Positions 1 to 58,333 of a DNA stretch of 64,000 nucleotides are shown here, piece by piece. Position 1 is the stretch's first letter. Each line of letters opens with the position of its first letter. Source of the DNA: Stappia sp. TSB10P1A (GTDB taxonomy: Bacteria; Pseudomonadota; Alphaproteobacteria; Rhizobiales; Stappiaceae). The translations under genes and the position numbers were made by a program. The DNA lies in assembly GCF_900185725.1 (NCBI RefSeq), contig NZ_FYAU01000029.1, forward strand, positions 1 to 64,000, in the 5' to 3' direction. Below the pieces are notes generated by a model that was not told where the DNA came from, made no database searches, and saw nothing but the letters and a program-made list of their open reading frames with translations.

Positions 1-2107
1 GGACGGAACGTTCGACAAGACCAAGAACATCGCGTTCGAGTGCGATGTCCGCCTGCCGGTGGCGCCAGCCGCGCGATCGGTGCTGTGGGAAGACGGCGGG
101 ACCGGGATCGGCGCCGCCGTCTACATCGCGAGTTCCGGACAGATGGTACTGCGGGCCGGCAGCGGCTCTCCCTCCGTGCAGGCGAGCGATGCCACCACCG
201 CGGTGCTCAAGGTGCCGGTCGGCGCCGATGGCAAGGTGCACAGGATCGCCTGGGATATCCGGATCAACCCCGGCCGGGTCCGGCTGTGGATCGACGGCGT
301 CCTGCTCGGGGAGGCATTTACGACGGGCGGAGGTCCGCTGTCGGGAAATGTCTATGCGGGCAGCGACTGGGGCGGGTATCTGCGGCCATCCACCGGCGAC
401 GGCAGTTTTGCCGGCGTGGCATCGGGCGGCGTGTGGTGGAGCGACCGCGCCGGCGCCAGCACCCTGCGGGTCTGGGCGGATCGGCAGCACGTTGCGCCAA
501 TAACGGTTGCACCGGTGACAGCTATTCCCAACGGCACTTTCAACAAGGCCGCCTCCATCGCCTTCGAGTGCGACGTTCGCCTGCCGGCGGAGCCGGCGCC
601 ATGGTCGGTGCTGTGGGAAGAAGGCGGCACCGGGTGGGGGTCATCGCTATTTGTAGATGCAGCGCGCCGCCTCATCCTCCGGGCGGGTAGCGGCAATCCG
701 GCGACCACATCGAACACCTGGAACACGGTGATCGTCAGTCTCCCCGTCGAAATGCTGCCATTCGACGGCGCGGTGCACCGAGTTGCCTGGGACATCCGGA
801 TAGGCCCCGGCCGGGTCCGGCTGTGGATCGACGGGGTCCTCATCGGCGAAGCGCACACGACGGGAGGAGGCCCGTTGGGTGGCTCCATCTACGGTGATGC
901 GGATGCCGGCGGCTATCTGCGCCCCTCGTCCGCGAACGTCTGGGCCGTCGCCGGCATCCCTGTCGTGCCGGTCAACTGGTCAGCCCCGGCCGACGCCAGC
1001 TCCCTGCGGGTCTGGCCGGGGTGGCGGCAGCACGACACATCGCGCCAGTCTGTGCATGTGCTCGCGCCCAGCCGCAACCCGGCGCCGTGGCTGCTGGAGG
1101 CGATGACCGGTCGGCTCAATGCGGACCCGATCCCGCTCGACGTAGTCGATCTCGACGGCATCCTGGCGTGGCGCAGCGATTGCTACGACAGCTCCTATAC
1201 TTGCGACATGGTGGCGGAGGGCGAGAGCCTGTCCGACCTGCTGAGGATCATCGCGAGCTGCGGCTACGCGCGGCCCTATCAATCGGAGGTGTGGGGGGTG
1301 ATCCGTGACCGCGACAGGTCGGCCGAGGCGCCGGTTCAGGTTTTTTCCCCGCGCAACATGTCGCGGTTCCGGTGGACGCGGGCGTTCGCACGCCTGCCGG
1401 CCGGCCTCCGGGCGACCTGGAAAGACGCGATCGAGCACGGCCGCGAGAGGCAGGTGATCGTCTATCGTCGCGGCGCGGTGGGCACGGACGCACGCACCGA
1501 GCAGGTGAGCTATGAGGGCCTGGTCGATGAGGACAAGGTGCGGCGTCGCGCCGCCTTCGACCTGGCGCAGGCGGAGCATCGCAGTGCCTTCTACGATTTC
1601 ACCGCGCCGGCCGAGGCGATCCGCTGCCGGCGCGGATCGCTGATCGCGGTCAATCACGACGTACTGACGCGGCACAGCCAATACGGCCGGATCGTGAGCG
1701 TCACCACGTCGGGCGGCAATGTGACCGGCATCGTGCTCGACTGCACGATCGAGGTGGCCAACACGGCCGACATGGTGGTGACCGCAAACCTGCTGGCTGT
1801 CCCGGACATGCTCGACGTGGGGACGCGCACGGGCATCGCGATCCGGCGCGGCGACGGGTCGACGAGCGTGCATGCGCTGTCCACGGCGCCCGGCACCACC
1901 GACACGCTGATATTCGCCACTCCCGTCCCCAACGTGATCGTCGCCGGGCAGCCGGCGATCGATGCCGGCTGCCTCGTGGTGGTCGGCACGATCGACCGCG
2001 AGTACCGGCGGATGATCGTCTCTGAGATCCGCAACGGCAAAGGCCTCACCGCGCAAATCACGGCGGTGGATGAGGCGCCACAGATATGGGAGGCCATCAA
2101 TGGCTGA
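1..2107 (+). CDS. Phage tail-tip (TipJ/host-specificity-like) protein with two tandem lectin-like modules, 5' partial
   Basis: The frame is open from the first base, so the N-terminus lies outside the window and only about 700 residues are visible. Two consecutive modules of about 160 residues (roughly nt 2-490 and 527-1020) share the phrases AFECDVRLP, SVLWE-GGTG and PGRVRLWIDGVL. They resemble LamG/concanavalin-type carbohydrate-binding folds. The remaining part (from about nt 1050) resembles the tail-tip or host-specificity region of siphophage tails, including a stretch about RNPAPWLLEAM and a beta-rich C-terminus. The protein would sit at the tail tip and contact the host surface. Its stop overlaps the next start by 8 bp. 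Family assignment is from recognised sequence style, not a search; a gene transfer agent or pyocin-like particle is also possible. Confidence 0.72.
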   Translation, partial: DGTFDKTKNIAFECDVRLPVAPAARSVLWEDGGTGIGAAVYIASSGQMVLRAGSGSPSVQASDATTAVLKVPVGADGKVHRIAWDIRINPGRVRLWIDGVLLGEAFTTGGGPLSGNVYAGSDWGGYLRPSTGDGSFAGVASGGVWWSDRAGASTLRVWADRQHVAPITVAPVTAIPNGTFNKAASIAFECDVRLPAEPAPWSVLWEEGGTGWGSSLFVDAARRLILRAGSGNPATTSNTWNTVIVSLPVEMLPFDGAVHRVAWDIRIGPGRVRLWIDGVLIGEAHTTGGGPLGGSIYGDADAGGYLRPSSANVWAVAGIPVVPVNWSAPADASSLRVWPGWRQHDTSRQSVHVLAPSRNPAPWLLEAMTGRLNADPIPLDVVDLDGILAWRSDCYDSSYTCDMVAEGESLSDLLRIIASCGYARPYQSEVWGVIRDRDRSAEAPVQVFSPRNMSRFRWTRAFARLPAGLRATWKDAIEHGRERQVIVYRRGAVGTDARTEQVSYEGLVDEDKVRRRAAFDLAQAEHRSAFYDFTAPAEAIRCRRGSLIAVNHDVLTRHSQYGRIVSVTTSGGNVTGIVLDCTIEVANTADMVVTANLLAVPDMLDVGTRTGIAIRRGDGSTSVHALSTAPGTTDTLIFATPVPNVIVAGQPAIDAGCLVVVGTIDREYRRMIVSEIRNGKGLTAQITAVDEAPQIWEAING

Positions 2108-52427: not shown

Positions 52428-52455
52428 TTGCGTTCGCCCGCCGGCCCGCTATAGT
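52428..52455 (+). promoter_or_regulatory. Probable promoter of the rimP-nusA-infB operon
   Basis: TTGCGT (52428-52433), 16 bp, TATAGT (52450-52455). Transcription would start near 52462, leaving about 105 nt of leader to rimP, with a terminator inside it. Confidence 0.55.
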
Positions 52456-52496
52456 GAACCCACTTCAATTCTCTATCGGCTCGCATGAGCAGTATG

Positions 52497-52533
52497 AGAG
52501 TGGGCCCTTCCGGGGACCCGCTCTTTTTGTTTT
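52497..52533 (+). terminator. Intrinsic terminator/attenuator in the rimP leader
   Basis: AGAGTGGG (52497-52504) pairs with CCCGCTCT (52517-52524), one T-G pair, with an inner CCC/GGG stem, followed by TTTTTGTTTT to 52533. It lies between the promoter and rimP, so it would stop most transcription unless relieved. Confidence 0.75.
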
Positions 52534-52568
52534 GGTGGTCGCCCTTCGGCGGCTCCGGGGAGACGGTT

Positions 52569-53147
52569 TTGCAGGATCAGGAAACGCGGATCGTTCGCGA
52601 GAACGGACTGGAAGCGCGCATTGCGGCCATGGTCGAGCCGGCGATCGTCGATCTCGGCTTCCGCCTCGTGCGCGTCAAGCTGTCGGGCCTCAACGGCTTC
52701 ACCCTGCAGATCATGGCCGAGCGCCCCGACGGCACCATGACCGTCGACGACTGCGAGGCGGTGAGCCGCGCGGTGACGCCGGTCCTCGATGTCGAGGATC
52801 CGATCGACCGGGAGTATCATCTCGAGATCTCCTCGCCCGGCATCGACCGGCCGCTGGTGCGGGCCATCGATTTCGAGCGCTGGCGCGGGCATCTCGCCAA
52901 GCTGGAGCTGGCCGTGCCGCGCGACGGCCGCAAGCGCTTCCGCGGCGAGATCCGCGCCGTCGAGGGCGGCGAACTGGTGCTGCGGCTGGAGGATCTGCCG
53001 GATGACGGCGAGCCGGACGTGCGCCTGACGCTCGCCGACATCGCCGAGGCCCGCCTGGTGCTGACCGACGCGCTGGTCGAGGCCTCGCTGAAGGCGGACA
53101 AGGCGGCGCGGCGCAAGGCCGGCGCCAACGGCGCGGACGAGGGCTGA
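52569..53147 (+). CDS. rimP: Ribosome maturation factor RimP
   Basis: 192 residues from the TTG at 52569, which has GGGGAG 6 bp before it; in-frame ATGs at 52485 and 52494 would translate the terminator hairpin and give a non-family N-terminus. The region [27 protein letters not shown] and [36 protein letters not shown] are RimP landmarks. It is needed for 30S subunit maturation. First gene of the rimP-nusA-infB operon. Confidence 0.92.
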
Positions 53148-53245
53148 GCCGCGCGGCGGCAACGGGAATTCCGACGGAAGCGGCCGAGCCCTTCCAGATG
53201 ACAGGAAAGCGCCGGCACGGACCGGCGCGAGAGGAGTGGACTGAG

Positions 53246-54913
53246 ATGGCAATCAGTGCGAACCGGCTGGAGCTGCTGCAGATCGCGGATGCGGTCGCGC
53301 GCGAAAAGACGATCGACCGCGGCATCGTCATCGCCGCGATGGAGGACGCGATCCAGAAGGCGGCGCGCTCGCGATACGGCTCCGAGACCGAGGTGCGTGC
53401 CGAGATCAATCCGCGCACCGGCGAGATCAAGCTGCAGCGCCTGCTGTTGGTGGTCGAGAGCATCGAGAACACCTCGACGGAGATCGACCTTGAGGAGGCG
53501 CTGCGCCGCAACCCGATGGCGCGCCTCGGCGACTATATCGCCGAACCGCTGCCGCCGCTCGACTTCGGCCGCATCGCCGCCCAGTCGGCCAAGCAGGTGA
53601 TCGTGCAGAAGGTGCGCGAGGCCGAGCGCGACCGCCAGTATGACGAGTTCAAGGACCGCATCGGCGAGATCGTCAACGGCGTCGTCAAGCGGGTCGAATA
53701 CGGCAATGTCATCGTCGACCTCGGCCGCGGCGAGGCCATCGTGCGCCGCGACGAACTGATCCCGCGCGAGCTGTTCCGCAACGGCGACCGCATCCGCGCC
53801 TATGTCTACGACGTGCGCCGCGAGCAGCGCGGCCCGCAGATCTTCCTGTCGCGCACCCATCCGCAGTTCATGGCCAAGCTCTTCGCCCAGGAAGTGCCGG
53901 AGATCTACGACGGCGTCATCGAGATCCGGGCGGTGGCCCGCGATCCGGGCTCGCGCGCCAAGATCGCCGTCATCTCCAAGGACAGCTCCATCGATCCGGT
54001 CGGTGCCTGCGTCGGCATGCGCGGCAGCCGCGTCCAGGCGGTGGTCGGCGAGCTGCAGGGCGAGAAGATCGACATCATCCCGTGGAACCCGGATCACGCG
54101 ACCTTCATCGTCAACGCGCTGCAGCCGGCCGAGGTGAGCAAGGTGGTGCTCGACGAGGATGCCGAGCGTATCGAGGTGGTGGTGCCGGACGAGCAGCTCT
54201 CGCTGGCGATCGGCCGCCGCGGCCAGAATGTCCGCCTCGCCTCGCAACTGACCGGCTGGGCGATCGACATCATGACCGAGCATGACGAGTCGGAGCGCCG
54301 CCAGAAGGAATTCACCGATCGCACCCAGCTCTTCATGGAGGCGCTGAACGTCGACGAGGTCGTCGGCCAGCTTCTGGCGTCCGAAGGATTTGCCTCCGTG
54401 GAAGAAGTGGCGTATGTCGAGCGCGAAGAGATTGCCACGATCGAGGGCTTCGACGAGGAGACCGCCGACGAGATTCAGGCACGTGCCCGCGAATATCTCG
54501 ACGAGATTGAGGCGAAGCTCGACGAGGAGCGCCGTGAACTCGGCGTTTCCGACGATCTCAGGAGCATCTCCGGTCTGACCACGGCCATGCTGGTCGCGCT
54601 CGGCAAGGATGGGGTGAAGTCCGTCGAGGATCTCGCCGGCTGCGCCACCGACGATCTCGTCGGCTGGAGCGAGCGCGCCAGCGGCACCGTCACCCGCCAC
54701 GAGGGCGCGCTGAGCGGGTTCGATCTCAGCCGCGCCGAGGCCGAGGAGATGATCATGTCCGCGCGCCTCGAGGCGGGCTGGATCACCGAGGCGGACCTGG
54801 CGTCCGACGAGGAGCCGGCCGGGGACGAGGCGGACGAGGGCGAGACGGACGAGAACGGGGCGGACGAGAACGAGGCGGGCATCGCCGCAAGCGGTGTGGT
54901 GCACGAGGTTTGA
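53246..54913 (+). CDS. nusA: Transcription termination/antitermination protein NusA
   Basis: 555 residues from the ATG at 53246 (GAGGAG site). An N-terminal RNA polymerase-binding domain, an S1 domain (about 135-200, [23 protein letters not shown]), two KH domains (with [26 protein letters not shown]), and C-terminal helix-hairpin repeats ([22 protein letters not shown]). It acts in pausing, termination and antitermination and may read its own leader's attenuator. An acidic C-terminal tail follows. Confidence 0.96.
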
Positions 54914-54969: not shown

Positions 54970-55650
54970 GTGCCGAAACGAAACGAGCCATTGGAACGAA
55001 GCTGCGCGTTGACCCGCGCGGTGCGGCCGGTGGAGGATCTGATCCGTTTCGTCGCGGGCCCGGACGGCGCTATCGTCCCCGACCTGCGGCGCCGTCTGCC
55101 GGGCCGGGGCGTCTGGATCACGGCGAGCCGCCGGTCGGTCGCCGAGGCCCAGAAGAAGAAAGTGTTTGCCCGCGCGCTCAAGGATGGGACCGTGCGGGTG
55201 GAGGGCGACCTCGCCGACCAGGTCGAGGCCCTTCTTGAGCGGTCCGCGCTGAACGCGCTGTCTCTGGCCCGAAAGGCGGGCGAGGTCGTCAGCGGCTTCG
55301 CCAAGGTGGAGGCGGCGGTGCGCGGGCAGGATATCATCGGACTCGTCCAGGCGCGCGATGGCGGCGACGACGGGGCCAGAAAGCTCGCGGCAATCGCGCG
55401 GGCGCGATTTGCCGATACCGGCGGTTGCCGGATCATCGGCTGTTTTACATCGGCTCAATTGGATTTGGCATTGGGTCGGTCAAATGTGATACATGCTGCA
55501 CTGCTTGCAGGCCGGGCAGGCGAGAACGCTCTCGTCCGGGTTGAGGAACTGGAGCGTTTCCGTACCGAATCCGACAGGACCCCGGTTGCCGGAACGCTCG
55601 ACGATCCGGTTTCGAATGACGGTGCGGGCGATGCGGTGATCCAGGACTGA
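54970..55650 (+). CDS. YlxR-like RNA-binding protein fused to L7Ae-like domain
   Basis: 226 residues from a GTG at 54970. The N-terminal DUF448 (YlxR) part has [19 protein letters not shown] and [11 protein letters not shown] second domain from about residue 85, [27 protein letters not shown], resembles ribosomal L7Ae/L30e RNA-binding proteins. Fused forms are typical between nusA and infB in Rhizobiales. RNA binding is likely; the RNA target is not known. Start codon is inferred. Confidence 0.88.
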
Positions 55651-55657
55651 AGGCGAT

Positions 55658-58333
55658 ATGAGCGAAACGAAGAACCCCGGCGACAAGACGATCAGCATGG
55701 AGCGCAAGACACTGGGCCTGAAGCGGCCCGGCGTCGAGCAGGGCACTGTTCGTCAGAGCTTCTCCCATGGCCGCACCAAGGCGGTCGTGGTGGAGAAGAA
55801 GAAGCGCCGGGTCGTCCTGCCGGGCGAAGGCGGCAAGCCGGAGGCCGAGGCCGAGGCGGCACCGCGCAGCGTGGCGCCGCCCCCCCAGCGCCGGCCCGAT
55901 ATCGAGCTGGCGACGCCCTCGCGCCGGTCGGAGACGTCCGGGCAGCAGCGGCCGCGTGGTGGCAACATCCTGCGCACTCTGACCGAAGACGAGGCGGCTG
56001 CCCGGCAGCAGGCCCTGATCGAGGCGCAGCGCCGCGACGCCGAAGACCGCAAGCGGCGCGAGGAAGAAGAGCGCCTGCGCGCCATCGAGGAAGAACGCCG
56101 CAAGGTCGAGGAAGCCGAGCGGGCCAGGCAGGAGGCCGAGGAGGCCGCCCGTCGTGCCGCCGAGGAGGCCGAGCGCAAGAAGAGCGACGACGGCCGCGAG
56201 AAGGTTTCGGCCTCGGACGCGGCCGACGCGATCTCTGCCGCAGTCGGCGAGGTGTCGGCTGACGCGCCGGCTCCGGCCGCCCGTGACGAGGCCGCGCGCA
56301 AGCCGGCCGCCGCGGCTCCCGCCGCCCCGGCCCGCCGGGCCGAGGGAGACGACGAGGACAGCCGCAAGGGCGGCGTGAAGGCCGTCAAGCGCGCCAAGGT
56401 TGCGCCGGTGCGCGCTCCGGCCAAGACCCCCGGCGCCGACGACCGTCGCCGGTCCAAGCTGACCATCTCCTCCGCCACCGGCGATGACGAGGGGCGCAGC
56501 CGTTCGCTCGCCTCGCTGCGTCGCCGCCGCGAGAAGGAGAAGCGGGCCGGCCAGCAGGTGGTGCGCGAGAAGATCTCCCGCGAGGTGGTTCTGCCCGAGG
56601 CGATCACCATCCAGGAGCTCGCCAACCGCATGGCCGAGCGGGCCGTCGACGTGATCAAGCTGCTGATGAAGCAGGGGCAGATGCTCAAGATCAACGATGT
56701 GATCGACGCCGACACGGCGGAACTGATCGCCTCGGAGATGGGGCACTCGGTCAAGCGCGTCTCGGAAGCCGATGTCGAGGAGGGCCTGTTCTCCGCTCCC
56801 GACGCGGACGACACGATGGAGTCGCGTCCGCCGGTCGTCACGATCATGGGCCATGTCGACCACGGCAAGACGTCGCTGCTCGATGCGCTGCGCCGCTCCA
56901 ACGTGGTGCAGGGCGAGGCCGGTGGCATCACCCAGCATATCGGCGCCTATCAGGTCGAGCAGGGTGGCAACAAGATCACCTTCATCGACACGCCGGGCCA
57001 CGCCGCCTTCACCCAGATGCGGGCCCGTGGCGCCAAGGCCACCGACATCGTCATCCTGGTGGTGGCCGCCGATGACGGCGTCATGCCGCAGACGAAGGAA
57101 GCCATCGCCCATGCCAAGGCGGCCGGCGTGCCGATCATCGTCGCGATCAACAAGATGGACAAGCCGTCGGCCGATCCGAGCCGCGTGCGCACCGACCTCT
57201 TGCGCGAGGACATCGTGGTGGAATCGATGGGCGGCGACGTCATCGATGTCGAGGTTTCGGCGCTGAAGGGCACCAATCTCGACAAGCTGCTGGAGATGAT
57301 CCTGCTGCAGGCCGAGGTTCTGGAACTGAAGGCCAACCCGCACCGCACCGCCGAGGGCATCGTCATCGAGGCGCAGCTCGACAAGGGCCGTGGTCCGGTG
57401 GCGACGGTCCTGGTGCAGAAGGGCACGCTGAAGGTCGGCGACATCGTGGTGGCCGGCTCCGAGTGGGGCCGCGTGCGCGCCATGCTCGACGAGAACAGCC
57501 AGCAGGTGAAGGAGGCGCCGCCCTCCAAGCCGGTCGAGGTCCTCGGCTTCAACGGCACGCCGGATGCCGGCGACATGGTCGCCGTCGTCGAGAACGAGGC
57601 CCGCGCCCGCGAGATCGTCGACTACCGCCAGCGCCAGAAGCGCGACAAGGCCTCGGTCCTCGCCAGCGGCGCCCGTGGTTCGCTCGAGCAGATGATGAAC
57701 CGTCTGCAGCAGAGCGGCCACAAGGAGTTCCCGCTGGTCATCAAGGGCGACGTGCAGGGCTCCGTCGAGGCGATCGCCGGTGCGCTGGACCAGCTCGGCA
57801 CCGAAGAGGTCAAGGCGCGCATCCTGCATGCCGGCGTCGGCGGCATCACCGAAAGCGACGTGACGCTGGCGGCCGCCTCCAACGCGCCGATCATCGGCTT
57901 CAACGTCCGCGCCAACAAGCAGGCGCGCGACGCGGCCGAGCGGGAAGGCATCGAGATCCGCTACTACAACATCATCTACAACCTGGTGGATGACGTGAAG
58001 GCGGCGATGTCGGGCCTGCTGTCGCCGGAGCGCCGCGAGACCTTCCTCGGCAATGCGGAGATCCTCGAGATCTTCAACATCACCAAGGTCGGCAAGGTGG
58101 CCGGTTGCCTCGTCACGGAAGGCATCGTCGAGCGCGGCGCCCAGGTGCGCCTGATCCGCGAGAACGTGGTGATCCACGAGGGCAAGCTCGGCACGCTGAA
58201 GCGCTTCAAGGACGAGGTCAAGGAAGTCCAGTCCGGCCAGGAATGCGGCATGAACTTCGAGAACTACCAGGATATGCGCCCGGGCGACGTCATCGAGTGC
58301 TACCGGGTGGAGGAAGTCGCCCGCACCCTTTAA
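55658..58333 (+). CDS. infB: Translation initiation factor IF-2
   Basis: 891 residues. A long, charged N-terminal region (to about 300, Ala/Glu/Arg-rich, with [29 protein letters not shown]) precedes the G domain, whose P-loop GHVDHGKTS is near residue 400, followed by the DTPGHAAF and NKMD motifs and domains II-IV ending [15 protein letters not shown]. It places initiator tRNA on the 30S subunit. It is the largest gene of the operon and a terminator follows it. Confidence 0.97.

Follow-up and report, generated by a model that had tools for sequence, protein, structure and literature searches.

Ahead of rimP, the window (the whole 64,000-nucleotide stretch of Stappia sp. TSB10P1A DNA that was analyzed) carries a leader in which a promoter is followed by two overlapping hairpins, P1 and the terminator hairpin T, the 3' strand of the former serving also as the 5' foot of the latter, and this leader recurs upstream of rimP across the order Hyphomicrobiales. 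Its conservation gives good support to an attenuator ahead of rimP-nusA-infB, which we hold to be very probable. The leader fits the published rimP-leader attenuator; hence, the basic element is already known, and the overlapping hairpin P1 is the new part. As the best explanation we propose, with evenly poised confidence, that the leader may be the Hyphomicrobiales form of the rimP-leader, in which NusA would stimulate attenuation and P1 would be what renders T conditional. The original prediction had posited an attenuator at this place from a promoter and a terminator, both of which were recovered; the overlapping upstream hairpin P1 went unmentioned in it.

The gene order metK, trmB, leader, rimP, nusA, YlxR-like gene, infB, rbfA, and truB, all on the + strand, was established from open reading frames and NCBIfam models. 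The latter recover RimP, NusA, an RNA-binding (YlxR-like) protein, IF-2, RbfA, and TruB downstream of the leader, and MetK and TrmB upstream of it, with the TrmB model scoring 100.9 bits, below its cut-off of 112.65. Between the end of the T-rich tail at 52533 and the presumed TTG start codon of rimP at 52569 lie 35 nt (Table 1). Between rimP and nusA, on the - strand at 53209-53228, there is an 8-pair hairpin with a T-rich tail, of which 0.5 would be expected by chance; this is the sole terminator-like site around the leader in a consensus scan.

Table 1. Features of the leader and the genes that follow it, in window positions.
Feature	Positions	Strand	Basis
Promoter TTGCGT-16-TATAGT	52428..52455	+	Letters; same promoter type in 70 of 79 leaders
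Hairpin P1, near the presumed transcript 5' end	52468..52501	+	Fold of nascent RNA; upstream pairing of the foot in all 80 leaders
Shared strand GAGAGU (P1 3' strand and 5' foot of T)	52496..52501	+	Folds
Terminator hairpin T, full form	52496..52525	+	Fold; model R1 match 52461-52534, E 1.3e-16
T-rich tail TCTTTTTGTTTT	52522..52533	+	Letters
Likely ribosome-binding site GGGGAGA	52557..52563	+	Deduced from letters
rimP, likely start TTG 52569	52569..53147	+	NCBIfam; relatives' matches begin at or near the TTG codon
nusA	53246..54913	+	ORF and NCBIfam
YlxR-like RNA-binding protein	54970..55650	+	ORF and NCBIfam
infB (IF-2)	55658..58333	+	ORF and NCBIfam

The promoter is present as predicted, with a -35 box TTGCGT (52428-52433), a spacer of 16 nt, and a -10 box TATAGT (52450-52455), from which a transcription start near 52461-52463 can be deduced. 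Of 79 leaders, 70 keep a promoter of this type, TTGnnn-16..18-TATA-like, compared with 1.7% when the letters are shuffled. Hairpin T (GAGAGTGGGCCC) begins at 52496; its 3' arm ends in CCCGCTC and is followed by the T tract TTTTTGTTTT at 52524-52533, which confirms the predicted hairpin with a ten-base T-rich tract before rimP, and the hairpin is kept upstream of rimP among relatives. The fold of 52460-52568 is modestly better than that of shuffles (z -2.15, with 3 of 200 shuffles equally good), and the consensus scan of the window, which applies stricter rules, lists neither the leader promoter nor hairpin T. In view of this modest fold and the scan result, the window alone does not show the leader to exceed chance; it is conservation among relatives that argues against a chance origin.

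Of 110 rimP loci that were fetched (L002-L111, which include the window's genome as L002 and some genomes twice, e.g., L003 and L032), 107 carry upstream of the gene a hairpin that matches (G/A/C)(A/G)GAGTGGG...CCCGCTC followed by a T-run, small variations being allowed; two of the 107 (L045 and L046) were matched through an added pattern without the T-run, and a first, stricter hairpin pattern had matched 91 of the 110. In one Brucella oryzae contig the rimP locus occurs twice, near both ends (L058 and L059), perhaps because a circular assembly was left with its overlapping ends unclosed. With L050, L055, and L057 dropped beforehand, deduplication reduced the 107 loci to 94 and then to 80 distinct leaders. 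Alignment A2 holds 55 of these 80 and omits 25, including L045, L046, L047, and the majority of the Devosia type; the 55-leader counts for T and the covariance model R1 therefore lean to the regular form, and alignments A3 and A4 hold 19 and 18 of the 80. A search of the order with R1 at E <= 0.01 located the leader in 221 of 297 genomes, with 102 of the 122 genera sampled represented among them, and rimP lies near the match in all 30 loci listed from this order-wide search. When rimP positions were compared with R1 matches in 37 relatives, a match at E <= 1 was directly upstream of rimP in 34, among them G042, G049, and G050 with weak matches (E 0.14-0.64) that in G042 and G050 are not the genome's best; the three without a match at rimP are G039, G044, and G047, in the last of which inspection by eye reveals a longer variant. 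The window's genome has its R1 match at rimP at E 1.3e-16 and the next one, at C49, at only E 0.0039, a steep drop from which we read the leader as a single-locus element and reject a second genomic copy. The C49 region (L241; G000:C49:713486-713576) is matched weakly by R1 on either strand, at E 0.004 and 0.02, and is probably a bidirectional terminator of the ordinary sort.

Elsewhere in the class, 29 loci (among them L174, which belongs to the window's order) were searched with a strict pattern, and 12 yielded a compact stem, e.g., GTGGGCCAGCGGCCCACTTTTTT; further compact stems are visible by eye at other-order loci. The class-wide R1 search at E <= 0.01 gave matches in 48 of 289 genomes, at least three of which (G000, G116, and G150) are in the window's own order; since rimP adjoins the match in just 6 of 27 loci listed from outside the order, the remainder are taken as chance. 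For a P1-like overlap, 19 loci chosen from other orders show no enrichment, 11 having it against 61% of shuffles.

The stem of T is strongly kept and at the same time appears weak. Its cells are paired in 99.3% of cases across the 55 aligned leaders, all 55 of which retain the U-G pair of GAGUGGG/CCCGCUC; outside this alignment, L096 and L047 have CAC in place of CGC. Mismatches or bulges break the core in 80 of 120 leaders; of the 40 whose core is unbroken, 35 have at least two G-U pairs. The segment GCUCUUU in the 3' arm could be read as boxA-like; this reading was set aside, as pairing and the U-tract suffice. By analogy, T would belong with the weak hairpins that rely on NusA or NusG in Bacillus subtilis, where, according to PMC8060035, suboptimal hairpins are helped by NusA and NusG-dependent pausing buys time for weak terminal A-U and G-U pairs. 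Being kept weak, the stem would need its foot, and the foot is the very strand that P1 takes.

As the P1 3' strand is the T foot at 52496-52501, P1 and full T are mutually exclusive. Before the 3' arm of T has been made, the foot has upstream partners for four or more of its five letters in all 80 distinct leaders, against 54% with the upstream part shuffled, and the mean energy of this pairing lies at z -1.8 relative to shuffles. Forty further leaders were hand-picked among the R1 matches listed, at one or two per family, from 32 other families; the foot is paired upstream in 35 of them against 56% of shuffles, the pairing being missing in L206, L215, L216, L228, and L236. This would amount to 8e-6 if the leaders were independent, which they are not fully; nor is the test itself fully independent, since the sequence of the P1 5' strand is part of R1 and there may be species in common with the earlier loci. 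The apical part of P1 varies by family: in Stappia it is GCUC/GAGC, in rhizobia and their relatives either AUC/GAU or GUC/GAC, and in Methylobacterium a long helix; it is practically absent in L201, L203, L224, and L231. These four, together with L209 and L251 and all from different families, share a near-identical stretch around GCTCATGATCATCTCA just before the hairpin.

Across clades, the basal P1 pair that adjoins the apex is CG in 34 of the 55 aligned leaders, UA in 13, UG in 5, and other in 3. P1 cells are paired in 80% of cases versus 44-66% when slid, and the P1 covariation score is reached by none of 500 shuffles; like all shuffle probabilities given here, this one ignores relatedness, which inflates such counts. 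Pairs changed on both sides show no excess in the 55 leaders (327 of 500 shuffles reach the number), the two outer P1 pairs are unpaired in 24 of the 55 each, and within single clades the P1 pair counts are not above shuffles (score reached by 68 and 467 of 500); little within-clade change is to be expected, as the shared strand is also held by T. In L222, the foot GGAAG no longer fully pairs with the 3' arm and P1 pairs nine bases, so that P1 seems better kept than the foot. We lean slightly toward P1 being a competitor of T.

Of the mechanism that we propose, the promoter, T, P1, their overlap, and their conservation are seen in the sequences; the RNA ends, termination, switching, and the part of NusA we infer. 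RNA polymerase would make the 5' hairpin P1 first and the terminator T afterwards, and T would have to recapture its foot from P1. Were T to win the foot, the hairpin would close onto the U-tract and transcription would stop after about 70 nt; were P1 to hold it, a short stem would remain, with GCUC between the stem and the U-tract, and transcription would read through into rimP-nusA-infB. NusA, which may well be the signal, would assist the weak terminator hairpin, such that much NusA would give more termination and less of the operon and little NusA the reverse. In B. subtilis, NusA attenuation reportedly works without antiterminator structures. The NusA-stimulated version is favored because of the B. 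subtilis and Escherichia coli precedents (PMC8060035, PMC12288461, and PMC6511841). In B. subtilis, NusA is reported to regulate its own expression by attenuation, through NusA-stimulated termination in its leader (Mondal et al. 2016, cited in PMC12288461); the like is proposed for E. coli, where the metY-rimP-nusA-infB leader has terminators t1 and t2 upstream of rimP and NusA is said to share in its own regulation (PMC6511841). A nusA operon leader is concerned in both B. subtilis and Stappia, whereas NusA dependence was measured in the former and is deduced by analogy in the latter; unlike the leader here, near which no tRNA gene was found, that of E. coli has the metY tRNA gene and RNase III sites. 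Such precedent renders plausible the autogenous control by NusA suggested in the original prediction. If the leader works likewise, it would provide a test object of about 70 nt in 102 of the 122 sampled genera, and its natural series, with P1 rebuilt between families and the T-run absent in six leaders, would allow the contributions of P1, stem, and U-tract to be separated.

In energy, all 80 leaders favor full T over the combination of P1 and short T, with a margin of 1.5-9.3 kcal/mol and a median of 4.8; compared with a two-state antiterminator, the upstream strand takes only the six-nt foot of the T 5' arm, and T is favored throughout. Hence, P1 could delay or condition T and not override it at equilibrium. 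The same preference is in line with an attenuator that lacks P1 competition, with P1 as a 5' stabilizing or pause hairpin and T under NusA alone, as is a pause-like G-10 Y-1 G+1 pattern 10-12 nt beyond the foot in 71 of 120 leaders versus 34% of shuffles. However, it is pairing to the foot itself that is conserved, and not merely any upstream hairpin, and we regard this alternative as rather unlikely.

Six of 150 distinct leaders (from 170 loci) lack the T-run and retain P1 and the stem, namely L045 and L046 (Roseibium, L045 being Roseibium suaedae), L055 and L057 (titled Bauldia), L050 (titled Mesorhizobium sp. BR1-1-16), and L256. In these, presumably either attenuation has been lost or the fold has another use. 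They would suit a reading of the P1/T fold as mainly a protein-binding or processing site, with termination secondary; yet T-poor leaders amount to just these six and, in part, L054 with its shortened T-run, and the T-rich tail is kept in 143 of the 150, so that we hold this to be quite improbable. In 4 of the 170 loci (L214, L257, L258, and L259) a script detected no leader; L214 and L257 show variants by eye. A bolder and, in our estimate, doubtful extension of the preferred competition between P1 and T would be an order-wide two-hairpin kinetic switch, in which P1 and T compete for six nucleotides, P1 is a NusA pause hairpin, and the folds without a T-run act without intrinsic termination.

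The terminated RNA of about 70 nt might instead be a trans-acting small RNA, being small, structured, ended by a U-tract, and encoded at a single conserved locus; against this, the P1 apex is variable, conservation is concentrated in T, and the element sits at rimP in 30 of 30 loci checked, making a small RNA very improbable. Leader translation was proposed earlier to open the hairpin from the ATGs at 52485 and 52494, which are in frame with rimP in this genome as had been stated. Among loci L002-L031 (30 loci, L028 giving no row), however, an ATG at the place of 52485 occurs in ten and is in frame in two (L002, the window, and L013), and one at the place of 52494 occurs in 11 and is in frame in the window alone; as the reading frame is not conserved, the proposal is unsupported, and a leader-peptide attenuator or leader ORF governing the hairpin was rejected as scarcely credible. 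Similarly hard to credit is T as a mere terminator of the upstream metK-trmB unit: 70 of 110 loci have a co-oriented trmB upstream, but the conserved promoter sits upstream of T, and tblastn, which may miss diverged trmB, located none within 1500 nt in the other 40 (L075 offers just 188 nt of upstream sequence), 38 of these 40 still matching the leader pattern and the T-run being missing in L055 and L057, which do not.

Among known systems, the closest is the rimP-leader of Naville and Gautheret 2010 (PMC2965389), called there the most ubiquitous transcription attenuator. As described there, it is a GGGc...gCCC terminator with a G-rich 5' arm, a C-rich 3' arm, and a T-stretch ahead of rimP-nusA-infB, for which NusA is the best candidate regulator; an antiterminator is not visible in most species, several Gammaproteobacteria having a tandem upstream terminator with an antiterminator, and this absence is a description and not a requirement. 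The Stappia leader shares the operon position, the GGGC stem, and the T-stretch (GGGC...ACCC plus T-stretch in the window, the less conserved g of gCCC being A there and other letters in relatives), and its terminator-to-gene spacing, counted to the presumed start codon, falls inside the 4-130 nt of the rimP-leader. It differs from the general form in its upstream hairpin that overlaps the terminator foot and its often interrupted stem core. In the open-licence literature searched, no description of a P1 overlap with the rimP terminator was found; as to earlier sightings as a small RNA, nusA, rimP, and infB are absent as words from the main texts of PMC3927594, PMC7717549, PMC5596092, PMC2873474, and PMC12218461, and a word search of PMC12403871 did not find nusA or rimP. 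The Rfam family RF01770 (rimP) has name and gene context in common with the leader, but its model does not recognize it: the best match in the genome scores 21.4 bits against a cut-off of 47 and is not at the leader. No Rfam family reaches its gathering score in the window leader or 14 related loci, so that a riboswitch there would have to be of an uncatalogued kind, and two matches at a relaxed threshold (E 3 and 4.6) were taken as chance. In its supplements, PMC2873474 reports 378-379 mRNA leader transcripts, and the rimP leader described here may be among them.
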